Positions 7,820-50,737 of a stretch of 64,000 nucleotides of DNA are shown piece by piece. Numbering within the stretch: the stretch's first letter is position 1; every line of letters begins with the position of its first letter. Source of the stretch: Armatimonadota bacterium (lineage in GTDB: Bacteria > Armatimonadota > Fimbriimonadia > Fimbriimonadales > GBS-DC). The position numbers and the translations under genes were made by a program. The stretch is from positions 1-64,000 of the forward strand of contig JABWCR010000010.1 in the NCBI GenBank assembly GCA_013359125.1, read 5' to 3'. A model generated the notes under the pieces. That model saw only the letters and a list, made by a program, of their open reading frames with translations. It was not told where the DNA came from and ran no database searches.

Positions 7820-8273
7820 TGTCTTCTTCCTCCATCGTGGTGTTCTCGCTCTTGACGAACGCGCCGTTCGACCGGCTCCTTTGGACTTTGGTCAGCGCGC
7901 CCTTTGCCGCTCCGGTCAATGCCCGCCCGCCTAATCTTAAAATAGCCCCCAATGCTCCGCCTGCTATTTTCGCCGCTCGGTCGGGCAACCCTCTAATCGT
8001 GCCGGCAATATTGTCCACCGTCTCCACCTTGTTGCGAATGTTGTCCGAGAGCGCATGAACGTTGGCCAGCGTGTCGGCGGCCTCTCTCAATGCTCTCTGC
8101 GTCTCTTGCAGCGCGGGCACCGTCTCGTCCAAAACCCGATCGATCTTGACATTGACCTCCTGTATGGCGGCCTGCGCCTTCTTTAGTTGAAGAACGGCAA
8201 CAATCACCGCCCATACAAACGCCAATAGAGTAACCGAATGCAATACGATCAGCGTCAGCAACAAGCCGTTCAT
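7806..8273 (-). CDS. DUF948 family membrane-anchored coiled-coil protein
   Basis: 155 residues with one N-terminal membrane helix (about 3-26) and a long heptad-patterned region (about 30-100), then an Ala/Gly-rich helix and a basic, polar tail. The DUF948 (YoxC-like) family shares this layout; its function is not established. The start codon overlaps the mnmA stop in an ATGA tetranucleotide (8270-8273) and the 3' end overlaps ytxH. Confidence 0.8.
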
Positions 8274-9373
8274 GCCGCTCTCCTCGCAATCACGCCTCCG
8301 CCCAAGACAGTCTGGCCTCGATAGAAGACCGCGATCTGTCCCGGCGCAATAGCGCGAACCGGACGACGAAACTGCACGTTGGCACAGTCTGACTGCAACC
8401 CGGGAACGACGATAGCGGGCGCCTCTGGCATGTTATATCGAATCTTTGCCTCGACGGCTATGGGTTCCTGCAAAGTATCCACGCTGCTCCATGTAACATT
8501 CTCGGCTGTCAACTCCCGCTCGTAGAGTTCGCTCTCAGCCCCGACCACAATCTCGTTCGTCTCGGGAGCGACCTTCAGCACGTAAAGCGGCGATCCGTTC
8601 ACATTGAGATGAATGCGCCGCCGCTGGCCGACCGTATAGTTCGCAAAGCCCTCGTGACGGCCCAACCGCTTGCCGCTGGAATCGACGATGGCGCCCTCTT
8701 CGAACGCCTCGGGCGCCCGCTGACGCAAAAAGTTGTGATAGCCGCCGTTCTCGGCCACAAAGCAAATCTCCTGACTGTCCGGCTTGTTGGCCACCCACAG
8801 CCCTAGCTCGGTCGCCAACTGTCGCGTCTCGGCCTTATCGCGCATCCGGCCCAAAGGAAAGAGCGTGCGAGAAAGCTGATGCTGATCCAGCATGTAAAGC
8901 ACGTAGGACTGATCCTTGGCCTTGTTCGCAGCTCTCAGCAGGTTCCAGCGGCCCGTCCTCGGGTTGCGCCGCGTTCGCGCATAATGTCCCGTGGCGACAT
9001 AATCGCAACCCAGTTCGTCGGCCTTGCGCAACAGCGCGTCGAACTTGATAAAGCGATTGCACTGCACGCACGGATTGGGCGTGCGGCCGGCCAGATACTC
9101 GTCCACAAAGTCTTGAATGACCGTCTCGGCAAAGAGTTTTCGGAAGTTGAGCACATAGTGCGGGATACCGAGGCGACGGGCTACGCGGCGCGCATCCTCC
9201 ACCGCGCCGAGCGAGCAGCAGCCGCTGTGCCGAGGGTCGGCTACCGTCTCCTGCCAAATCTGCATGGTGACACCGACGGCGTCGTAGCCCTGGCGCAACA
9301 AGAGGGCGGCGGCTACAGAACTATCGACCCCGCCGCTCATTGCCACCAGAACCGTCCCCCGCTTCTTGCTCAT
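8270..9373 (-). CDS. mnmA: tRNA-specific 2-thiouridylase MnmA
   Basis: 367 residues, normal for the family. MnmA activates U34 of tRNA Lys, Glu and Gln with ATP and inserts sulfur at C2. Visible motifs: the PP-loop SGGVDSS (about 15-21), the NPCVQCNRF segment with one catalytic Cys (about 102), and DSQEICFV with the second Cys (about 200). The C-terminal beta domain ends in [15 protein letters not shown]. It heads the operon running to 1184. The promoter-proximal region shows TAGAAT 10 nt before the ATG with no Shine-Dalgarno, so the mRNA may have almost no leader. Confidence 0.97.
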
Positions 9374-9646: not shown

Positions 9647-9695
9647 CAGCGGCGTTCCGGTCAGCGGCTCGCGAGGACGCTCGCCCTCCCGGCTT

Positions 9696-9970
9696 GATTT
9701 GTACTCAAAATTGTGCTACATTTTGAAAAAATCCCGTTCGTGAGGGACGATTTCGGCTCGCGGGGACGCTCGCCCTCCCGGGCGGCGGCTAGTAGGGCCA
9801 GGCAGGAGCCTGGCGTTCCAAAGGCGGGCGTTCCGGTCAGCGGCTCGCGGGGACGCTCGCCCTCCCGGGCGGCGGCTAGTAGGGCCAGGCAGGAGCCTGG
9901 CGTTCCAAAGGCGGGCGTTCCCCGTCGAACGGGAATCTGCGAAAATGTAGCACAAAATTAGGTACGAATC
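9696..9970. mobile_element. 275-bp element with 45-bp imperfect terminal inverted repeats (MITE-like)
   Basis: The left arm 9696-9740 and the right arm 9926-9970 are inverted copies, 45 nt each, about 80% identical, sharing GTGCTACATTTT and TCCCGTTCG blocks and outer ends GATT(T/C)GTAC. The left arm also recurs alone at 41391-41435 with only one mismatch. Between the arms lies an 87-bp tandem repeat. There is no transposase, and no target-site duplication is obvious. The right arm reaches into the stop codon of the VOC gene (9969-9971). Calling it mobile is inference from the structure. Confidence 0.55.
9754..9922 (+). repeat. 87-bp tandem repeat, about two copies
   Basis: Copy 1 is 9754-9840 and copy 2 runs from 9841 to about 9922, essentially identical. 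Each unit contains GGGGACGCTCGCCCTCCCGG, then GGGCCAGGCAGGAGCCTGGC (a hairpin), then GGCGGGCGTTCC. A diverged partial copy precedes the left arm at about 9651-9692. Confidence 0.9.
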
Positions 9971-10310
9971 ACGACCTAGGATTCACTATTTGCAACCAAC
10001 GGCCGTCGGGGTCGCGAAAGAGCGGGCAACCCTCGTCGCCGTCGTAATCGACCGGCGAACAGCCCATCGCCACCAGCCGACTGATCGCTCCAGGCAGGTC
10101 GTCCGTATAGACCACGATCGCAGCGCCGGACGAAGCGTAAGCATCGGCTTGGGGCGCGGAACCTGGCCTGATCAGAAGTTCGGTCTCGCCCGATTTCAGC
10201 CAGACGATGTTCGGACCCTGCTCGTCGATGCGCTCAAAGCCGATCGCTTCGTAGAACCGGCTCGTCGCGCCCACATCCTTTGCAAACAGTTCGATATGTC
10301 CAAACCTCAT
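9969..10310 (-). CDS. VOC (glyoxalase/bleomycin-resistance fold) family protein
   Basis: 113 residues, one VOC domain made of two beta-alpha-beta-beta-beta modules: it opens RFGHIELFAKDVGATSRFYE, with IGFERID and later DDLPGAISRLVAMGCSP and PLFRDPDGRWLQIVNP. The ligands would be His5 and a Glu near 43, with an acidic residue late in the chain, as in metal-binding members. The substrate cannot be read from the sequence; it could be a lyase, dioxygenase or binding protein. The ATG at 10310 overlaps the rsmE stop by ATGA. Its stop lies inside the right arm of the repeat element. Confidence 0.85.
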   Translation of the reverse strand: MRFGHIELFAKDVGATSRFYEAIGFERIDEQGPNIVWLKSGETELLIRPGSAPQADAYASSGAAIVVYTDDLPGAISRLVAMGCSPVDYDGDEGCPLFRDPDGRWLQIVNPRS

Positions 10311-17165: not shown

Positions 17166-18830
17166 ATGAAGCGGTTGCTTTTGGCCGTATCGGCGCTCTT
17201 TGTTACCAGCGCCCTTTTCGCCCAACCGATTCCATCGGTTTTCCCACCTTCTAACGCAGGCCCGCCTAGCTGGATTCAGGGCGGCCTTTGGTCTCAGCCG
17301 TGGGACAATGTGTCCCAAGGAACCGTTGCTCAGGACTTTCCAGACTTTCCGACCTTCTCGACGTACGAGTTTAACGACATGCGCGTGCCTGGCCCAGGCT
17401 GGAATATCACGTCGGTTCGCGGCGTGGGCTTCAATTCTGCCAGCTCAAATCGGGGCCTGAACGAAGATGTTCGGCTTCTGATCTCCTCTAATGCCAACTT
17501 CGCCAACCCGGGCACGATCTATGCCTTGGTGAGCGGAAAGTCGGTGTTGGATGCGGGGTTAGACACCTTGATCTTCGACGAGTTCAGCCTAAGCCTGCCG
17601 CGCGGCGACTACTGGGCTTCGATGTGGGTGCGCCGACCCTTCGGAGGCGGAGGCGGCCAGTGGTTCTGGGCTCGAACGCTGCCTATTCGCCTAGGCGAGC
17701 ATATCTTCCACAACCCGGGCGGCGGGTTCGGCTTTGGCACTGCGCCAGTTCCTGGAACCACTGTTTTCGGTACGGCGGCCGATCAGAACATCAATGTTGC
17801 CGGCACGTTGGGCGAACCGTCTGGCGATGTGAACGGCGACGGCATCGTGGACGATTCCGACCTGGCCATGGTGCTAGAGGCGTTTGGCAACGACTGCGAC
17901 GGTTGCGCAGAGGATGTGAACGGCGATGGCATCGTCGATGACAGCGATCTGGCAACCGTGCTGACCGAGTTTGGCCAGGAGAAGATGAAGTGCGAGGTTT
18001 CGGCCTTCAACGTGCCGACCAATCGGTCAGGATGCGTTAACGAAGATGCCGGAGGCGGCCGCCGCAAAGCAGGCGAGCGCTTCAACATGAACGCCGACTT
18101 CACCGGCAAGTGCGAGTGCTGCGAGTACCGACAATACGTCAAGGGCTTCTTTAAGTTCAACGGCGTCAATCTGGTTCACCGCCTCTGCGGGGAGAATCTC
18201 GACGAAAACAACTACCGTGAAGACGGTTTCGAGCAAGGCACCGACTGTCACCGATACGGCTATCGCGCTGACGCTTGGGGCCAGGCCAGCAACGACATCT
18301 ATCAGGCGCCCAATCGGGCGACCGGCTGCGAGTACCGCGGCTTCGACTTCCCGGGCATTACCGCCAATGCGGGCAATACCTATGAGGTCAATCTGAGCTT
18401 CCGCGGCGAGATCGTAGACGTGTGCAACGGGAACAAGGTTGTCCGCACGACCACATGGACCGTCAAGTGCTCCGGCACGCTGTCGGCCGAAGAGGAGCCC
18501 ATCTCCCAGCGAACCATCGAAACGAGATTGGACGGTCGAGACGTTACCGTTCAACTCAAGTCGATGGACGACGGGCGACTGATCGCGGTCGTTTCCATTC
18601 CCAATGGCGACGGCTCGCTGCCGCTCTTCTCCAACGACATCGACCTTTCGATCGGCAATCTGAAACTGAACAGCAAGACCGAAGGCCGCCTGATCGAGAC
18701 CCAGATCTTCGTCTCGAGCAGCAGCCACTCGATCTATGAGTTCTCGCTGCCCGCCAACATGCGCGGCAAGGCGATGAAGATGAACCTGTCCGTTCGAGGG
18801 GAAACCGTCGGAATGATCGTAACGCCGTAA
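17166..18830 (+). CDS. Secreted protein with central dockerin-like repeats and a Cys-rich C-terminal domain
   Basis: 554 residues with a signal peptide (1-19, ending ALFAQ). Residues 25-215 form a strand-rich domain reminiscent of exported PEP-CTERM-type modules. Residues 220-270 carry two dockerin/EF-hand-like Ca-binding repeats, DVNGDGIVDDSDL and again DVNGDGIVDDSDL, separated by a short Cys pair. Unusually these are not terminal: a further 280 residues follow, opening with a Cys-rich stretch with CECCEYRQYVKG (316-327) and CNGNKVV near 420, then a strand-rich end. The CCEYRQYVKG-type domain occurs in other hypothetical proteins as far as I recall but has no function I know. GGAGG lies 6 nt before the ATG. 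Confidence 0.75.
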   Translation: MKRLLLAVSALFVTSALFAQPIPSVFPPSNAGPPSWIQGGLWSQPWDNVSQGTVAQDFPDFPTFSTYEFNDMRVPGPGWNITSVRGVGFNSASSNRGLNEDVRLLISSNANFANPGTIYALVSGKSVLDAGLDTLIFDEFSLSLPRGDYWASMWVRRPFGGGGGQWFWARTLPIRLGEHIFHNPGGGFGFGTAPVPGTTVFGTAADQNINVAGTLGEPSGDVNGDGIVDDSDLAMVLEAFGNDCDGCAEDVNGDGIVDDSDLATVLTEFGQEKMKCEVSAFNVPTNRSGCVNEDAGGGRRKAGERFNMNADFTGKCECCEYRQYVKGFFKFNGVNLVHRLCGENLDENNYREDGFEQGTDCHRYGYRADAWGQASNDIYQAPNRATGCEYRGFDFPGITANAGNTYEVNLSFRGEIVDVCNGNKVVRTTTWTVKCSGTLSAEEEPISQRTIETRLDGRDVTVQLKSMDDGRLIAVVSIPNGDGSLPLFSNDIDLSIGNLKLNSKTEGRLIETQIFVSSSSHSIYEFSLPANMRGKAMKMNLSVRGETVGMIVTP

Positions 18831-36614: not shown

Positions 36615-38039
36615 CTACTCACACCCTAGGCCGAAGTTGTGGAGGACTTCTTCCAAGTCTAAATCGTCCACAATGCCGTCGCCGTTCAGATCGGCGGATG
36701 GGTCGCTCGTGCCGAACGCCTCCAGCGCCATCGCCAAATCCTTGTCGTCGACGCACCCGTCCCCGCTGACGTCCCCCTCCGACCGAACGGCGAGAATCTT
36801 GTACTTGACCAGGGGCGGAAGAGCAATCCCGCCCATCATCATATACAAGTTTCCTCGGTCGTACCTCACCCAGGATGCATGCATGAGCGGCATGTCAAGA
36901 TAAGTGAACCAAACCGGCCGAAAGTTGCGATCTAGTTTCAGGACCATCTGGACGCGGTTAGTGTTGTTCAAATCGTATCCAGACCCTTGGATGTAGTACG
37001 CCCCTCTCTCGTCGGATGCGAAGTAGTAATAGAGTTCTGTGTGTCGCACCCTTGGCTTAGGCAGGAGCAATGCGCCGATAACATCGCCGGTCTCTTTGTC
37101 AAAATGTAATAGATATTGGTCGCCACCTCCGTCGAACCAAGAAGCAAGCAAACGATCATAGGGGTCGGTCCAAATCTTGAATCCCGAGGCATAGAGTTGA
37201 CCGTTTGGCGGAAGCATCTGATGCCACTGCGGCGCGCCGATGTCGTCAAGTCCTAGAAGGCTGTTCCTCCATGTCTGGCCCGATCGAGCAAAAGTGCCAA
37301 CTGACGACGGACCCGTCTCTGGAATGGCGATTTTGCCTTGGTCCGTGAAGCTTTCGTCAAAGTCGCCCAGTGCAAAGTCGTACTCCAAAGCGCCAGTATT
37401 CGAATAGCGCAGCACGATGACGCTCGTTGCAACGCCGCCCAGAACGCAATTGCGAACGATACAACGGCCGTTGGCACGACCAGACCGTACGATATAGGGC
37501 TGTCCAAATGGCGATGTGTGCTCTGCCGACCAGATGGCGGTCAAATCGTGTCGATAAGAGCGCGTTACAATTGCGCTCCGAGTTCCAGTGAACAAGAACA
37601 ATGGCCCTTCCGCCATCTGTTGAATGCCGATGTCTTCTATCGCGGGCCCGGTCGCCGACGCCAGCAATTGACCCATCGAGTCAAGAAGCATGATCAACGC
37701 AACTGTTGACGAACCCTGCATATATATGCCGGCGCACAGAACCGCTCCTGTTGGAGAAATGGCCGTATGCAAGACCGCTTCGCTTGTTCCAAAGTTGAAC
37801 GCCCGATACCACTGCTGATTGCCCTGGTGATCAAACCGCACGACGAGCATCCAATTTGTCCCGCTCACAGAGCCGCCCATTGTAACGTTTCCCTCCTCGT
37901 CCACTACGCCGGTCGTCAAACTCGGACGAGGATATTGATCGGTGTTGGGAAACGTCCGCCACAGCTCCACCAGTTGCCCTGGACTCGTCTGGAGCAATGC
38001 AAGACACGCGACTGCCGCCAGCCATCTTGATCGTTTCAT
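36615..38039 (-). CDS. Secreted beta-propeller-like protein with C-terminal dockerin-like repeats
   Basis: 474 residues. The ATG at 38039 (MKRSRWLAAVACLALLQTSPG) has GGTGA 5 nt upstream; a GTG three codons earlier is possible. After the signal peptide come repeated strands with NWMLVVRFDHQGNQQWYRAF and YYIQGSGYDLNNTNRVQMVLKLD, like the SBBP or delta-60-type repeat of extracellular propellers. The C-terminal ~55 residues hold two Ca-binding repeats, DVSGDGCVDDKDLAMALEAFG and DLNGDGIVDDLDLEEVLHNFG, ending LGCE. It follows the galactose-oxidase-like gene with a strong hairpin in between. Confidence 0.75.
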   Translation of the reverse strand: MKRSRWLAAVACLALLQTSPGQLVELWRTFPNTDQYPRPSLTTGVVDEEGNVTMGGSVSGTNWMLVVRFDHQGNQQWYRAFNFGTSEAVLHTAISPTGAVLCAGIYMQGSSTVALIMLLDSMGQLLASATGPAIEDIGIQQMAEGPLFLFTGTRSAIVTRSYRHDLTAIWSAEHTSPFGQPYIVRSGRANGRCIVRNCVLGGVATSVIVLRYSNTGALEYDFALGDFDESFTDQGKIAIPETGPSSVGTFARSGQTWRNSLLGLDDIGAPQWHQMLPPNGQLYASGFKIWTDPYDRLLASWFDGGGDQYLLHFDKETGDVIGALLLPKPRVRHTELYYYFASDERGAYYIQGSGYDLNNTNRVQMVLKLDRNFRPVWFTYLDMPLMHASWVRYDRGNLYMMMGGIALPPLVKYKILAVRSEGDVSGDGCVDDKDLAMALEAFGTSDPSADLNGDGIVDDLDLEEVLHNFGLGCE

Positions 38040-38102: not shown

Positions 38103-40931
38103 TCAGTCGCCTCGGCGGCCCATCGATCTCAAAAGTATCTCCATGTCGAGCGGGTCCACAAGGCCGTCCTTGTTCAGATCGCTCCGAAGGAAGCGCCCTT
38201 GCTCCCGATCCGACCGCAACCCGGTTTCCTGTACCATCAGCGCCAGATCGGCCGAATCGACGACGTTGTCGCCGTTCACATCGCCGGTAAGCAGCGCAAC
38301 CGGAATCCGCTGGCCCTGGGCAACGCGAGCGACCAAACGCCGAGCCAAAAAGCCCTCCTGAGTCGGCAATATGAGCGCGTAGTCGCCCTCCGGCAGGCTG
38401 CCCGGCAAGGGGCAGCGCACAAGACCGTCCGCGTCCATCCCGTTGACGGCCAGGCGATAGACGCCCATCGAGCGACCCGTCTGCAGACTCTCGATCCGCA
38501 CCTCGATCGGCGGCATGTGCAGAGGACGAACGACAGCGACGGTTTCTTCGCCGCAATCGGCCGCTTCCTCTTCGCCCGCGCCTTCCATCAAGAACTCCAT
38601 CTCCGGATCGGCGATGCAATCCCCGCCGATAAACGGAGGCAAAAGGCGAATCCAACTGGCGATAGACGGCACGCCCTCGCTGTCGATCAAGAACAGCATA
38701 TACCACCCAGGCGGCGCGATCTGGTTGGACCAGGGCATTGTTACGGAGAGCGAGCCGGTCTGCGGCTGCGATCCCTGCTCGGGCGTGAAATGGCACCGCA
38801 CCAGCCTCTGGTCAAAGTCGACCGAGTGAGTAACCGAGCCCGGCCGCACCAGATGCACGGCTTTCACCTGGCGACCAGTCGGCAGGGCGTAAAGAACCTG
38901 AACGACTTGAGAATGGGCCGCTTGCTCCTCCATGATCGAGAGGATGCCAAGAACCCGAGGTCTATCGGTCGCGTCGACGATCGGATCGCCGTTCGGCTTG
39001 AACAGGTAGGGCGGCGAATAGATCGTCGGATAGAGATTCCGAACGCGCCGATGATGCGGTCGCGGGTCGGCGTTCCCATATCCCCACACGTCCGGATTGT
39101 TCCAATAGGCGTCGTCCTGTTCATGGGAATCCATATCGGTTCCCGAAGCCAGCACCCGCCCGTCCGGCATGAGCGACATTGTGGAATGGTACATCCGAGC
39201 CCCGTCGGGCGTCAGCAGCCCGCGGTTGAATTTAGGGATGTGCGTCTCGCTGTGGAGCGGATAGTCGCGATCGATGTCGACCGAACTCATCGTTGCGACC
39301 GGATCCCAGGCCGCGTTCTGCCACGATCCGTTCGTAGCGCGGGCAATGTCGCATTCGTAGCGGACATGCTGCCCCATGTGCCAGACGCAGTTCTGGTCGT
39401 TGGCGTGCTTCATGCCTCCGCCCACGAACAGATCGCCGTTGGGCAGGATGACCGCCGAAGGATACTTGGCGCCCGGCCGGCTGGGCGGATAGAGTCCCAT
39501 GGCAGCATGGCTGGCCATCGTATCGTGCTCGCTCGGCTCGGCTCGATATTGGTAGGTGTAAACCCTCGCGAAATCGGAGCCGGAATGAGGGACGCAGCCT
39601 TCGTTGCCGCCGATCCGGGCTACTTCGTAAAGAACCTGCCCGGCGGCATTGATCGGATTGGAATTGCCGTCCATGCGAGGCAAGAGCACGGTGGCGCCGC
39701 CGCTTCGGGTGAACGTCGGATAAGGCCCGCCGTCGTGCGCGGCGCCGTTCTTGCGCTTCCACGACCAGGCGCCCGCTCCCGTAGCCGGGGGCGCGCATCC
39801 CGGCATCTTGTTCTGCGAGTCGAGCACGAAGATAGGATAGAGCGGGCCGTTGTAGGTCGTTCGCGACGTTACCTGCGTTCCTTGCATAAAGCTGACCAGA
39901 TGCAGCCGCGGGTACTCGTTGCCGAGGAAGCGCCTTTGGTCCCCGCTTTGAAATCCGCCAGACGCATCGCACGGCTGAGCGGCCAGCGGATAGTTGGCAA
40001 GCGTGTTGTTGTGAGGGTGGTAAAGCTCGAAGCTGGTCGTGAATCGCGGATTGCCAACCTGTCCGAAGCAAGCGGTCGAGCCGCCCGTATTGTCGATGCC
40101 GCCCACGATCAGCGCGCTGCCGTCTTGCAACAGCATCGGAGAGGCGTACCAGCGCTTCTCGCTCATCAAGGGCAGCTGTTGGGCCGGGAGCGTCGCCGCG
40201 GAGCCCATCCAGCCGGCCTGGACCCCGCTCGCATCGTTTCGCCACTGTTCCGCGTCGTAGATGAACAGCGAGAAGAGTCCATGCGTCGGCTGATGTCCCA
40301 TCAAGGGATGGTAGCTGCCACCAACCACGAACAGCCGACCATCGTCTAACAGTGTGTGGCCGGAACAAAAGAGATTAGAAGATCGTATGTAAGCGAAAGG
40401 CTCCGAGTGATTCGTGATATCCCAGTCCGTGGAATATCCAATCATCCCGTATCCGCGTCGACCGGCGCCGTTCTGATCGTACAGTTGGCTCCAAGGATGC
40501 CGCCAGAAGAGATGAGCGTTCCAACTGTGGGTAAAGACGTTGGGATTCTCGATGCTGTATTGCTCGCCTCTGCCGATCAGCATAAAGACGCCTCGAGGCT
40601 CTCGTCCTGACTGCCCAGGCAAAAACAATCGGCTTGGCAACAAAACAGAATGGACGCCGAACGTGTCGCGAACCTCTCTGCCTCTAGACCGAACGCTTGC
40701 AAGGTTGACGCTCTCGGCCGATTCGATGTCGGCCGGAGTCTGATCGCTGTACGGGGCTATAAGGTCCAGACCGATCCCAAACGGATGCTCGCGCCATCGA
40801 ATGGGGCGTGGGTTTTCCCAAGTCTGGCCTCCCATGATAAAGTCCCACTTTCCAAGCGTTGCAGGACCTTGAGCGGGGGCGGACGGCGGCTGGGCGACAA
40901 ATGCGAAGATCAAAGCAAGGGTCGAGAGCAT
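38103..40931 (-). CDS. Secreted galactose oxidase/glyoxal oxidase-like copper-radical oxidase with dockerin-like tail
   Basis: 942 residues: a signal peptide (about 1-21), a Kelch-type propeller (about 90-660), a DUF1929/early-set Ig-like domain (about 660-765), a linker domain, and a C-terminal dockerin pair (about 882-938: DVNGDNVVDSADL and DLNKDGLVDPLDM). By comparison with galactose oxidase, all copper and radical ligands seem intact: Cys189 in NLFCSG and Tyr262 in KRWYASP for the thioether cofactor, Tyr581-His582 in RMYHSTMSLMPDGRV, and His702 in VTHSVDFDQR. The family oxidises primary alcohols or aldehydes with O2, giving H2O2. The substrate is unknown; a surface polysaccharide is plausible. 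The protein is longer than fungal members because of the tail. Confidence 0.85.
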   Translation of the reverse strand: MLSTLALIFAFVAQPPSAPAQGPATLGKWDFIMGGQTWENPRPIRWREHPFGIGLDLIAPYSDQTPADIESAESVNLASVRSRGREVRDTFGVHSVLLPSRLFLPGQSGREPRGVFMLIGRGEQYSIENPNVFTHSWNAHLFWRHPWSQLYDQNGAGRRGYGMIGYSTDWDITNHSEPFAYIRSSNLFCSGHTLLDDGRLFVVGGSYHPLMGHQPTHGLFSLFIYDAEQWRNDASGVQAGWMGSAATLPAQQLPLMSEKRWYASPMLLQDGSALIVGGIDNTGGSTACFGQVGNPRFTTSFELYHPHNNTLANYPLAAQPCDASGGFQSGDQRRFLGNEYPRLHLVSFMQGTQVTSRTTYNGPLYPIFVLDSQNKMPGCAPPATGAGAWSWKRKNGAAHDGGPYPTFTRSGGATVLLPRMDGNSNPINAAGQVLYEVARIGGNEGCVPHSGSDFARVYTYQYRAEPSEHDTMASHAAMGLYPPSRPGAKYPSAVILPNGDLFVGGGMKHANDQNCVWHMGQHVRYECDIARATNGSWQNAAWDPVATMSSVDIDRDYPLHSETHIPKFNRGLLTPDGARMYHSTMSLMPDGRVLASGTDMDSHEQDDAYWNNPDVWGYGNADPRPHHRRVRNLYPTIYSPPYLFKPNGDPIVDATDRPRVLGILSIMEEQAAHSQVVQVLYALPTGRQVKAVHLVRPGSVTHSVDFDQRLVRCHFTPEQGSQPQTGSLSVTMPWSNQIAPPGWYMLFLIDSEGVPSIASWIRLLPPFIGGDCIADPEMEFLMEGAGEEEAADCGEETVAVVRPLHMPPIEVRIESLQTGRSMGVYRLAVNGMDADGLVRCPLPGSLPEGDYALILPTQEGFLARRLVARVAQGQRIPVALLTGDVNGDNVVDSADLALMVQETGLRSDREQGRFLRSDLNKDGLVDPLDMEILLRSMGRRGD

Positions 40932-41349: not shown

Positions 41350-41389
41350 GATCTCTCAAGATCTTCACACCCATAGGTGTGGAGAGATC
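41350..41389. repeat. Compound inverted repeat
   Basis: GATCTCTC (41350-41357) pairs with GAGAGATC (41382-41389), and CACACC (41366-41371) with GGTGTG (41376-41381). The unpaired side between them, AAGATCTT (41358-41365), is itself a palindrome. The structure ends one base before the solo arm at 41391 and lies downstream of pdxH, so it could be its 3' end or part of a mobile element remnant. Confidence 0.5.
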
Positions 41390-41390
41390 G

Positions 41391-41435
41391 GATTCGTACT
41401 CAAAATTGTGCTACATTTTGAAAAAATCCCGTTCG
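41391..41435 (+). repeat. Solo copy of the 45-bp arm of the 9696-9970 element
   Basis: 44 of 45 bases are identical to 9696-9740 (the mismatch is T versus C at the fifth position). No inverted partner is seen within the island. It lies 22 bp downstream of the pdxH stop on the minus strand. Confidence 0.9.
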
Positions 41436-41457: not shown

Positions 41458-42024
41458 TTACGGCATCAATACCGAAGTTCTCCATTCGCCGTCTTGGAGC
41501 ACGAAGAGCGTCCGGTCGTGCAGGCGGTCGGGATATCCTTGCCAAAACTCAAAGGCGTCTGGGATCAGTCGATAACCGCCCCAATGCGGAGGGCGCGGCA
41601 CATGCCGCCCTTCAAACTCCTTTTCAACCTTCTGAAGCCGCTCGATCAGCGCCACCCTGCTTTCGATCTCCTGGCTCTGATCGGAGGCCCATGCAGAAAG
41701 TTGTTTGGCCCGCTCGCGGCCGGCAAAGTAGGCGTCCGATTCTTCCGGCGTTGTCCGTTCGACGCGCCCTTCGATTCGCACCTGTCGATGAAGCGGATGC
41801 CAGTAGAACAAAATCGCCGCTCTCGGGTTCATCGCCAACTCGCTTCCTTTGCGGCTCTGGTAGTTGGTATAGAAGACGAATCCTCGCTCGTCAAATGAGC
41901 GAAGCAAGGTCATGCGAACGGACGGCTGGCCTTCATGCTCGGTCGCCAGAGCCATCGCATGGGGCTCGGACTCGCTCTGAGCATCGGCAAACCATGCCTT
42001 AAACAGGGCGAACGGATCGCTCAA
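41458..42024 (-). CDS. pdxH: Pyridoxamine/pyridoxine 5'-phosphate oxidase
   Basis: 188 residues from the TTG at 42024, which overlaps the upstream stop as TTGA (42021-42024) and gives the plausible start MSDPFALFKAWFADA; a longer form from 42063 adds 13 residues. FMN and PLP motifs are in order: SVRMTLLRSFDERGFVFYTNYQSRKGSELA, AILFYWHPLHRQVRIEGRVER, and the C-terminal FWQGYPDRLHDR. The enzyme uses FMN and O2 to make PLP and releases H2O2. The final segment WRTSVLMP is close to the usual W...RLxP. Its place behind two cyclase genes is unusual and may be just co-transcription. Confidence 0.93.
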   Translation of the reverse strand: MSDPFALFKAWFADAQSESEPHAMALATEHEGQPSVRMTLLRSFDERGFVFYTNYQSRKGSELAMNPRAAILFYWHPLHRQVRIEGRVERTTPEESDAYFAGRERAKQLSAWASDQSQEIESRVALIERLQKVEKEFEGRHVPRPPHWGGYRLIPDAFEFWQGYPDRLHDRTLFVLQDGEWRTSVLMP

Positions 42025-44597
42025 TCCGCCAGCCTCCGCGATAGTTCTACCAATTCTTCCCACGTTAGCGACGCCCCTTCTTGCTTGAGTTCGGAGAATC
42101 GAGCTTCGCCATATAAAGACTTCAGATGGGCAACCGATTCGCGCCGTCGTTCGGTATCCAGCAGGCCTGCGTTGCGCGCCCCAAGATCAACGAGTCGGTC
42201 CACTGCGCCGAGAACGCGAACAGCGTTTTGCGGGTCGCCCAGTTCGATCAGCAGTCTGATCAATAGGGTCAATGTGAGCGCCATATAGAGCCGATCGCCC
42301 ACTCGACCGCGGATTTCCAGGCTTTCTCGCACCGCGTTCAGAGCGCCCCCCACATTGCCGCGGTCGAGCAACGCCTCGCCATAGTTGTGCAATGCCGCGC
42401 CCAAATACCATAGATAGGCCTCGCCCGTGCCGCGCAGCGTCTGGACTGCGGTTTCCAAGTCGTCCAAGGGCAGATCGGAGACGTATGCGTCGTTTGCAGC
42501 GCCATAGACGTTGATGGTTGCAATGGCGAACTTGACGTTATCGCCCAGCGTACGGAAAATCGCTTGCGCTTCTCGATAGCGGTCATAGGCCGTCGAATGT
42601 CGGTTCATTTCCTTAAGCGTACGGCCTAAGTTGTTGAGCGTGGCCGCCTCTCCGGCTCGATCGCCGATCGCCCGCCTAATGTCGAGCGCCTCTTCCAGAA
42701 GTTGACGCGCGTCGTCGATCTTCCGCTCTTCGGTAGCGAAAAGGCCTAACGCATTCAGCGATCTTGCCTTTAAGTCTAGACGGTCTTCCGACCCGATCTC
42801 TAGACCCCGCGAAAGCCACTCCTTTGCCTCTTCCACGCGGCCGACCGAGTACCAAAAAGGCAACACGGCAACCGCAAGGGTCAGCACATCGGGGCTTTCT
42901 TGTTGGGAAAGCGTCCGAAGCGCCGTCAACAGATTTTCGTGCTCGACGCCGAATCGCCGATAACTGGCCGAATCGCCCGTGGCCGACAAGCGCCCTTCCA
43001 ACTCTTGCGCCAGCGACAAGTAGCGATCTGCGTGATCCAACCTTAACTTTTCTGCCTCTTCTTTGGCTTCCAGCTGGCCGAACTCGCGCAGCGCGCTGAG
43101 CATCCTGTAGCGCGATTGGTCTCCAAAGGCCTCGCGACAGAGCATCGACTTTGCGACCAGGGAATCGATGAGCGGCAGGATCGAATCTCTCGTCAGAGGC
43201 GGCTCGCTGCAGACCGTCTCCGCCGATTCGATGTCGAATCCGTTGACAAAGACGCTACAGCGGGCGAAAAGCCGCTTCTCCGTGTCGGTCAGAAGCTCGT
43301 AGCTGGTACGAATAGTCTCAGTAAGGCCGCCTGGGGCGCTCCAGACTATCCGATCGAGACGTCTTTCGATTTCGCTCGGCGTAAGGCTGCCAGCCCACGA
43401 TGCAGCCAGTTCGATGGCCAAGGGAAGGCCATCGACTCGCCTGCAAATGTTCGCGATCGCGCTCAAATCGAGGGACGAGGCCAGCACATCTCGCCAGTCC
43501 AGTTCTGCACGCTCGGCGAACAGCCGGCACGCATGGCTTTCGATGACCTTTTCCGGCGATGCGCCTTCCGATAGCGTCAGGCCGCTGATCGCAAGGGTCT
43601 TTTCGTACGGCAAATCCAATCGATGTCGCGACGCCGCAAGGATTATAACGGCTTTGCATTGCGCCAGCGTTTTCTCGACGAGGGCTCTGGCTGACGCTCC
43701 AGCGCTCTCTAACCCGTCTAACACCACTAGCCAATGCCCTTCTTTGAGCGCATCGACGATGGCTTCCTCGACGCTTTGATCTGCTCGGCGAGGAACCTTC
43801 AGAGCGCTCAGCATCGCTCGCCAGATGCCCTCTTCGTCCTTGGTCTCGCTACAGTCTACCAACCACGCTCCGCGATCGTATTGAGCCGCCGCGAGGGCGG
43901 CGACGTGCGCGGCCAATCGAGACTTGCCCGCCCCTCCCGGACCGACGATAGAAACCAATCTCGCACTTTGAAGCAGAGAGATGAGCTTTTGAGTCTCTTC
44001 ATGTCGCCCAATAAAGGCGCTCAGGTTCTCAGTCAGATTGCCTTGCGACGCCGCGGGCGCCCGCAGAGGCGGAAAATCGGCAGCCAGGTTTGGATGACAG
44101 AGCTGATAGAGTTTCTCTGGTTCCTCAAAGCCTCTCAGGTGAAAGCTTCCGAGAGGTTTTAGGGACATTCTCTTCGGAAGCCCTGTAGAGATCAGCGCCT
44201 CTGTCGTCTCGGACACCACAATCTGGCCGCCGTGCCCAGCATCCATGACTCGGGCGGCTCGATGTACGGCAAGCCCCCGATAATCCGTTGCGATCTGTTC
44301 GGCTTCGCCCACATGGATGCCTATGCGCGCGCGCAATTCTGCATCCTGCGGCCAGATTTCTGAAACCAAAGCCAGTTGCGTTTCGACCGCGCATTCCGCG
44401 GCGGCGATCGCCGATTCGAATGCGGCATATCCGCCGTCGCCAGTCGCCTTGAAGAGCGAACCGCCATGTTCGGGCACTTTCTCAGCCAAAAGCGTCTCGA
44501 ACCGCCGCATAGAATCGGCCATGGCCTCTGGATAGCGCGAAAGCAGAGCCGTGCTGTTCTCTATATCGATAAGCAGAAACGCGCAGACCTGGCTCAC
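42021..44597 (-). CDS. Class III nucleotidyl cyclase - STAND (NB-ARC-like) ATPase - TPR fusion
   Basis: 858 residues from the GTG at 44597, which overlaps the upstream cyclase stop as GTGA and leads straight into the cyclase core; 43 extra upstream codons look like shadow sequence. Residues 8-170: cyclase homology domain with LLIDIENST (metal Asp about 11), GDGGYAAF (second Asp about 54) and DYRGLAVHRAARV, where His stands in place of the usual transition-state Asn while the Arg remains. Residues about 190-500: ATPase with FIGRHEE, P-loop GPGGAGKSR (about 218-226) and LVVLDGLE. Residues about 540-855: TPR-like helices. Such AfsR-like sensors couple ligand or protein recognition to an output; whether the cyclase is active is doubtful given the His. 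Confidence 0.85.
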   Translation of the reverse strand: MSQVCAFLLIDIENSTALLSRYPEAMADSMRRFETLLAEKVPEHGGSLFKATGDGGYAAFESAIAAAECAVETQLALVSEIWPQDAELRARIGIHVGEAEQIATDYRGLAVHRAARVMDAGHGGQIVVSETTEALISTGLPKRMSLKPLGSFHLRGFEEPEKLYQLCHPNLAADFPPLRAPAASQGNLTENLSAFIGRHEETQKLISLLQSARLVSIVGPGGAGKSRLAAHVAALAAAQYDRGAWLVDCSETKDEEGIWRAMLSALKVPRRADQSVEEAIVDALKEGHWLVVLDGLESAGASARALVEKTLAQCKAVIILAASRHRLDLPYEKTLAISGLTLSEGASPEKVIESHACRLFAERAELDWRDVLASSLDLSAIANICRRVDGLPLAIELAASWAGSLTPSEIERRLDRIVWSAPGGLTETIRTSYELLTDTEKRLFARCSVFVNGFDIESAETVCSEPPLTRDSILPLIDSLVAKSMLCREAFGDQSRYRMLSALREFGQLEAKEEAEKLRLDHADRYLSLAQELEGRLSATGDSASYRRFGVEHENLLTALRTLSQQESPDVLTLAVAVLPFWYSVGRVEEAKEWLSRGLEIGSEDRLDLKARSLNALGLFATEERKIDDARQLLEEALDIRRAIGDRAGEAATLNNLGRTLKEMNRHSTAYDRYREAQAIFRTLGDNVKFAIATINVYGAANDAYVSDLPLDDLETAVQTLRGTGEAYLWYLGAALHNYGEALLDRGNVGGALNAVRESLEIRGRVGDRLYMALTLTLLIRLLIELGDPQNAVRVLGAVDRLVDLGARNAGLLDTERRRESVAHLKSLYGEARFSELKQEGASLTWEELVELSRRLAD

Positions 44598-49603: not shown

Positions 49604-50737
49604 ATGGATAGGGGTAGATTGATAAAATCCATTCGTGTTATAGGTTATCTCGCTGTATTTTCGCTCTGTCTGGGTTTGTTGGCTTTGGTTTTTGCCGGCG
49701 GCAGCGACATTCTGACGTGGAACACGGCTCTGTCAGGCAACTGGAACGATGCGACAAAGTGGACGCCGAACAATGTGCCGGACGCCGCGAACGAAGTGGC
49801 CGTGATACCAACCGGCACGGTTACGATGAATGTCAGCCCCGCAATCAGCGCGCTTCAGATAACTTCCTTGCCAGGAACGCTAAACCTAGCTGGCAATACG
49901 CTCGATCTGCTCGGACCAGACCCCAGTTTCAACAGCGGATTTATCATCGGCAATGCGGGCAATGCTGTGATAAACGGAGCATTTGAGAATCGTGCAGACG
50001 GCGCCATACGCATTCAGGCCGGAACATCGCTGACGTTTAGCGGACCATCATTGGTGAACGACGGCCTCATAACCGTGAACTTCAACGGCGGAGCCTTTGG
50101 CACCAACATCACCTTTGGCTCGACTATGACGGTAACCGGCGGCGCACTACAGATATTGGGCGGCGTCTTGAAGGGCTCTGGCACGGTTGTGGCAGCGATC
50201 GTCAACGATAACGGCGGCTCCATCGAGCCGGGCGCTTCCGTTGGGCGCATGGCCATTACCGGCATACTGACCAACAATTCTCAGGGCATTGTCAAGATGG
50301 AAGTCGGCGGCTTGACCGCAGCGACCGAACACGATCAGATCACGGTTGGCGGTACTGGCGCGAATGGCGCCGCAAGCTTCGACGGCAAGATCGAAGTCGA
50401 TCTAATAAACGGATTTGCCCCCGTTGTGGGAGATGCTGCAACGCTAATGACCTATCGATTCTTGTCGGGTCGTTTCCAAGAAGCCGACATCCCTAGCTTA
50501 ACCGGTATTCGGCTTCGGCTTCAATATCTCGGCACTAGTTTGCGACTGATCGCGCTGGACGAAAACGCACTGGGAGATACGAACGGAGACGGCTGTGTGG
50601 ACGATACCGACCTGGCCGCAGTCTTAGCCGCCTTTGGCTTAATAGGCGCTGCGATGGCCGAGGACGCGAACGACGACGGTTTCGTGGACGACATCGACCT
50701 GGCTATCGTGCTGGAGCGCTTCGGACTGGGCTGTTAA
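49604..50737 (+). CDS. Secreted beta-solenoid-like protein with C-terminal dockerin-like repeats
   Basis: 377 residues. A basic start and hydrophobic stretch (about 8-31) act as signal peptide. The central part (about 35-310) has short strands, LTWNTALSGNWNDATKWTPNNVPDAANEVAVIP followed by repeated N- and G-rich turns, as in autotransporter-associated right-handed solenoids. The C-terminus carries two Ca-binding repeats, DTNGDGCVDDTDLAAVLAAFG and DANDDGFVDDIDLAIVLERFG, ending LGC, like the propeller protein at 36615. The stop interlocks with that of mazG (TTAA, 50734-50737). Confidence 0.75.
   Translation: MDRGRLIKSIRVIGYLAVFSLCLGLLALVFAGGSDILTWNTALSGNWNDATKWTPNNVPDAANEVAVIPTGTVTMNVSPAISALQITSLPGTLNLAGNTLDLLGPDPSFNSGFIIGNAGNAVINGAFENRADGAIRIQAGTSLTFSGPSLVNDGLITVNFNGGAFGTNITFGSTMTVTGGALQILGGVLKGSGTVVAAIVNDNGGSIEPGASVGRMAITGILTNNSQGIVKMEVGGLTAATEHDQITVGGTGANGAASFDGKIEVDLINGFAPVVGDAATLMTYRFLSGRFQEADIPSLTGIRLRLQYLGTSLRLIALDENALGDTNGDGCVDDTDLAAVLAAFGLIGAAMAEDANDDGFVDDIDLAIVLERFGLGC

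Follow-up and report, generated by a model that had tools for sequence, protein, structure and literature searches.

An apparently species-specific family of 45-nt bipartite arms with a near-invariant 10-bp core, putative ends of gene-less miniature mobile elements in an Armatimonadota genome

The window, that is, the whole 64,000-nt stretch of DNA analysed here, represents contig 10 of a 2.82-Mb draft genome in 47 contigs from one strain of an Armatimonadota species. Between mnmA and a glyoxalase-domain gene lies a short element bounded by two inverted arms of 45 nt, and a single copy of the same arm lies farther along the window beside the gene for pyridoxamine 5'-phosphate oxidase. The features are as follows.

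8270..9373, minus strand: mnmA (tRNA thiouridylase), the other neighbour of the window element
9664..9695, plus strand: GC-rich repeat GGCTCGCGAGGACGCTCGCCCTCCCGGCTT, abutting the outer end of the left arm
9696..9740, plus strand: left arm of the window element
9711..9720, plus strand: core TTGTGCTACA of the left arm, invariant
9741..9925, no strand: interior of 74% GC with REP-like GC-rich repeats
9926..9970, minus strand: right arm, inverted, whose outer end provides the glyoxalase-domain gene with its TGA stop
9946..9955, minus strand: core TTGTGCTACA of the right arm, invariant
9969..10310, minus strand: glyoxalase-domain gene, its stop codon overlapping the right arm
41391..41435, plus strand: solo arm, with 22 nt between it and the stop codon of the gene for pyridoxamine phosphate oxidase
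41458..42063, minus strand: gene for pyridoxamine 5'-phosphate oxidase, whose 3' end lies beside the solo arm

An earlier note on this DNA had described the two arms of the element as inverted and about 80% identical, which agrees with the 78% measured over 45 nt, and its third copy (41391-41435) does differ from the first arm by a single base, a degree of similarity for which shuffled sequence gave 0 matches. The interior is, as the note had it, a GC-rich tandem array (a perfect 87-bp repeat in 1.9 copies at 9754-9921), and GGAACGCCAGGC, which belongs to a separate repeat family that occurs also away from arms, is indeed common to both islands. The GC-rich interior likewise belongs to REP-like repeat families that are distinct from the arm. 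Exact copies of one of these repeats, GCTCGCGGGGACGCTCGCCC, number 106 in this genome and 15 in a sister genus, where the repeat is found within MITE-like elements of about 300 bp that have unrelated ends (AGAGACTGTTTAA) and, as read by eye, apparent 3-bp TNA duplications. Repeats are located preferentially on the inner side of the arm, hairpin repeats lie just outside some arms, and a flank that is the same as GGCTCGCGAGGACGCTCGCCCTCCCGGCTT, or nearly so, precedes about five other arms.

Several other repeat loci were seen in this genome. On contig 17 (at about 4.2 kb) an intact RAYT gene has arrays of AGTACCGCCGGCGTCCCCGCCGGC, a REP family recurring through the repeat islands of the genome, on both sides, from which it follows that REP systems are present. 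On contig 28 (at about 20.8 kb) GATCCCTCCACACCCGCGGGTGTGGAGGGATC-type palindromes stand on both sides of a broken RAYT-like gene; such palindromes also adjoin some arms and have a variant form at 41362-41391 of the window. Repeats of another kind, the GDVNGDGIVDDSDLA-type coding motifs at 17812-17980, 36653-36706, 38228-38285 and 50576-50730 of the window, resemble dockerin-type repeats at protein ends.

Searching the 2.82-Mb draft with a sequence-only profile of 28 arms (cut-off E<0.02) gave about 121 arm copies, so that the family is far from being limited to the three copies of the window. In an anchored alignment the order of each arm is GATTCGTACTC, 4 nt, the core TTGTGCTACA, an 11-nt A/T-rich spacer, and TCCCGTTCG or GGCCGTTCG, such that the inner end reads TC or GG followed by CCGTTCG, with a gap of 13 nt between the core and CCGTTCG in 114 of the 121 copies. 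Relative to the consensus, the outer and inner blocks diverge by 11% and 12%, the 4 nt by 25% and the spacer by 35%, while the core shows 2 changes in 1,210 positions (0.2%). Just outside the arm, G is preferred at positions -6 to -4 (59-78%). The profile had been seeded on the core and a test for bias was run for this reason: the core follows every one of the 56 pattern-fitting GATTCGTACTC sites of the genome and is exact at 55 of them, and the reversed-pattern control gave 0 sites, showing that core invariance is not an artefact of the search.

Such strict conservation is why a putative protein-binding unit, one of the readings offered by the earlier note, stays a candidate. In that case a lineage-specific DNA-binding protein would recognise the arm, and selection would preserve the arm whatever its origin; the contrast between 0.2% change in the core and 11-12% in the outer and inner blocks, together with the retention of the core at every pattern-fitting GATTCGTACTC site, speaks for such a site. 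However, the arms are not tied to any one gene direction or to promoters, are absent from all relatives and travel with repeat islands, and active transposition alone could account for an invariant core, all of which makes a host-used site unlikely. We consider it equally unlikely, in a wider form of the same idea, that the arm is the target either of a lineage-specific DNA-binding protein adopted by the host or of an as yet undescribed transposition system, for which the argument is a 10-bp core that is near-unchangeable across about 120 otherwise diverged sites.

Outside this genome the arm was sought at several depths. The arm profile had no convincing match in 17 other genomes of the family, and a core-plus-inner pattern with one mismatch allowed had 0 matches in 290 further genomes of this phylum. 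An exact pattern of 21 of 25 arm bases had no match among the GTDB species contigs, exact arm patterns had none among viral contigs, and blastn found no match to the arm in a plasmid collection. Phage matches to the arm were weak and at chance level (E 0.2-0.8) and were discarded. By these sequence comparisons the arm family looks species-specific among the genomes compared. About 121 copies with a nearly invariant core, in this genome only among those compared, bear out the suggestion that the arm is under recent spread or selection.

Twenty-two pairs of neighbouring arms lie within 600 nt of each other, and these face inward in 17 cases, outward in none and in the same direction in 5. The elements are 117-374 bp in size, with compact forms of about 117-150 bp, and contain no genes; a compact element on contig 21 (53.8 kb) has arms that are 93% identical. 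Near contig ends (up to 500 nt away) 26 arms face outward where about 1 is expected, which indicates that the repeat-rich interiors break the assembly and that some pairs are hidden. There are 59 solo arms, and within 450 nt of them no decayed partner was found beyond the known neighbours and a weak candidate at C22; a search downstream of them for a second, different end yielded just the GC-rich and hairpin repeats already described. Likeness between the two arms of an element does not exceed that between arms taken from different elements, and pairing brings no extra conservation (pairwise identity 75.0% for paired and 76.5% for solo arms).

The MITE-like character proposed at the outset holds for the size, the inverted ends, the lack of genes and the intergenic location, but most arms are solo, and neither a target duplication nor a matching transposase was found. 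No target duplication of 2-10 nt was seen at the 17 inward pairs, no plausible transposon lies between the arms of any pair, and the search for DDE transposases, which covered PF01609 and PF00665 (rve), found no gene of either family in the genome. A classical MITE, in which the arms are the terminal inverted repeats of a DDE transposon since lost or missed and the solo arms are remnants of deletion, would explain small gene-less intergenic elements with inverted ends in high copy number, and the sister genus, with its MITE-like elements, their apparent 3-bp duplications and related GC-rich interiors, also speaks for it. Such an origin is nevertheless improbable, though worth keeping in view, given that even the pair whose arms are 93% identical lacks a duplication, that PF01609 and PF00665 genes are absent, and that 59 solo arms stand without a decayed partner.

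Four genes with a Y1 domain are present, of which two are intact RAYTs (NCBIfam NF047646; on contig 17 at about 4.2 kb and on contig 21 at about 35.2 kb), one is a broken RAYT-like gene and one combines Y1 with a region like sigma-70 region 4, and no arm lies within 1.5 kb of any of the four. It is possible that a tyrosine transposase gene flanked by arms was lost in an assembly gap. The Y1-sigma protein (233 aa; contig 18, about 22.8 kb), which has an IS200-like Y1 domain and a sigma-70 region 4-like end, is encoded beside an aspartate carbamoyltransferase-like gene, lacks by eye the usual HUH motif, and is possibly a domesticated transposase.

With few exceptions the arms are intergenic and, with gene positions taken from a crude home-made ORF caller, 34 of them lie in convergent, 34 in co-directional and 16 in divergent gene gaps, an enrichment of convergent gaps when compared with the gene order of the window itself (odds ratio 4.5, P=0.001). 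Of the 65 arms whose outer end points toward the 3' end of a gene, 18 are placed at -2 to +7 nt from the stop, and several genes, such as the glyoxalase-domain gene of the window, take their TGA stop from the arm itself. In xerD the native stop is precisely where the arm starts: among 12 related genomes the same stop codon is used in 11 and one codon later in 1, unrelated DNA follows, and none of the 12 has an arm there, these empty sites being comparisons with other genera, all of them arm-free. The ruvC, tatD and pyruvate kinase genes are essentially full-length and have an arm a few bases past each. These alignments, mainly that of the one gene xerD, suggest that insertion may have taken place at the native stop. 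On contig 1 (about 172 kb) ruvC is followed by an inverted-arm element and then by convergent tatD, and ruvC directly adjoins its downstream gene in relatives, so that the element here stands at a breakpoint in gene order.

Positions directly past so many stops, together with the hairpin repeats outside some arms, could also suggest a structured RNA or 3'-end processing element acting in transcripts, the former being another reading of the earlier note. Yet RNAalifold predicted 0 conserved base pairs across 28 arms, folding of the arm is little better than that of shuffled sequences (z -1.4 with DNA parameters), neither an Rfam scan nor a tRNA scan returned any match, and arms occur in either orientation and also between divergent genes. 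The structured-RNA proposal is not supported, and a role of this kind is very improbable. Two further functions were set aside: a terminator, since arms also lie between divergent genes, and, by inference, an uptake sequence, for which the copies are too few and the conserved stretch too long.

Among known systems, TIR repeats and TIRtrons are moderately abundant long inverted ends, unrelated to REPs, that occur singly, as dimers or grouped (Di Nocera 2013, PMC3733652), and the arms resemble TIR repeats in being long inverted ends, single or dimeric, that are unrelated to REPs. Unlike in TIRtrons, no tyrosine transposase gene flanked by the arm was found, and none of the 120 arms tested has at its outer end the GGGGWSAS motif that some TIRs share. 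REPINs are extragenic inverted doublets and singlets with conserved outer ends and a variable interior (Bertels and Rainey 2011, PMC3116915), a description that also suits the arms, whereas the arm is longer than the palindromic REP unit, A/T-rich and devoid of its own conserved hairpin, its doublets are not more conserved than its singlets, and no RAYT adjoins it. Both the doublet and singlet pattern and the 3' placement of the arms are those of REPINs and TIR repeats (PMC3116915, PMC3733652); as the arms depart from each in at least one tested feature, we claim only that they work like them. The BrickBuilt MITE of Porphyromonas gingivalis (about 19 copies, 12-bp IS5-like ends, some target duplications; PMC4596501) is likewise miniature, with inverted ends that enclose a tandem repeat, but the present family has about 121 ends of 45 bp and no target duplications. 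Correia elements (more than 120 copies in N. gonorrhoeae) and the pneumococcal BOX and RUP families, which cluster and nest in one another (PMC10969869), are like the arms small intergenic repeats, but they differ in sequence, and in the arms conservation is concentrated in one 10-mer inside a bipartite end.

The explanation we prefer, tentatively and at a little under even confidence, is that the arms are the recognition ends of lineage-specific, miniature, gene-less mobile elements that are moved in trans by an HUH (Y1) transposase. Such transposases of the RAYT/TIRYT type act on single-stranded DNA and leave no target duplication. It is the lack of target duplications, the doublet-and-singlet pattern and a placement like that of REPINs and TIR repeats that point to a mover of this type, and from these we infer both the mobility of the arms and the identity of what moves them. 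The basic unit would be two inward-facing copies of the bipartite end of about 45 nt, many copies persisting as single ends, and the mover would most likely be an HUH (Y1) enzyme of this RAYT/TIRYT type acting in trans, for which the invariant TTGTGCTACA would be an essential contact and CCGTTCG, at a fixed distance from the core, a second one. Insertions would be tolerated at or just past stop codons, mainly between convergent genes, and the window copy would carry REP-like GC-rich repeats between its ends. Known Y1 transposases need a hairpin, and a single arm without a conserved hairpin counts against a Y1 mover, as does the distance of more than 1.5 kb between the Y1 genes and the arms; that conservation is no higher in paired than in solo arms, unlike in REPINs, also counts against mobilization by an HUH transposase.

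The arms add a high-copy family of putative miniature elements, found in one species among those compared, and the genome that carries it yielded no PF01609 or rve transposase. Little explanation exists for families that have long non-palindromic ends but no known mover, and the present one is a small and tractable case. Its simple arm code (an invariant 10-mer, a fixed spacer and a second block) is directly testable against the few tyrosine transposases of the genome. The location of these elements in repeat islands that break the assembly also matters for the reading of such genomes.
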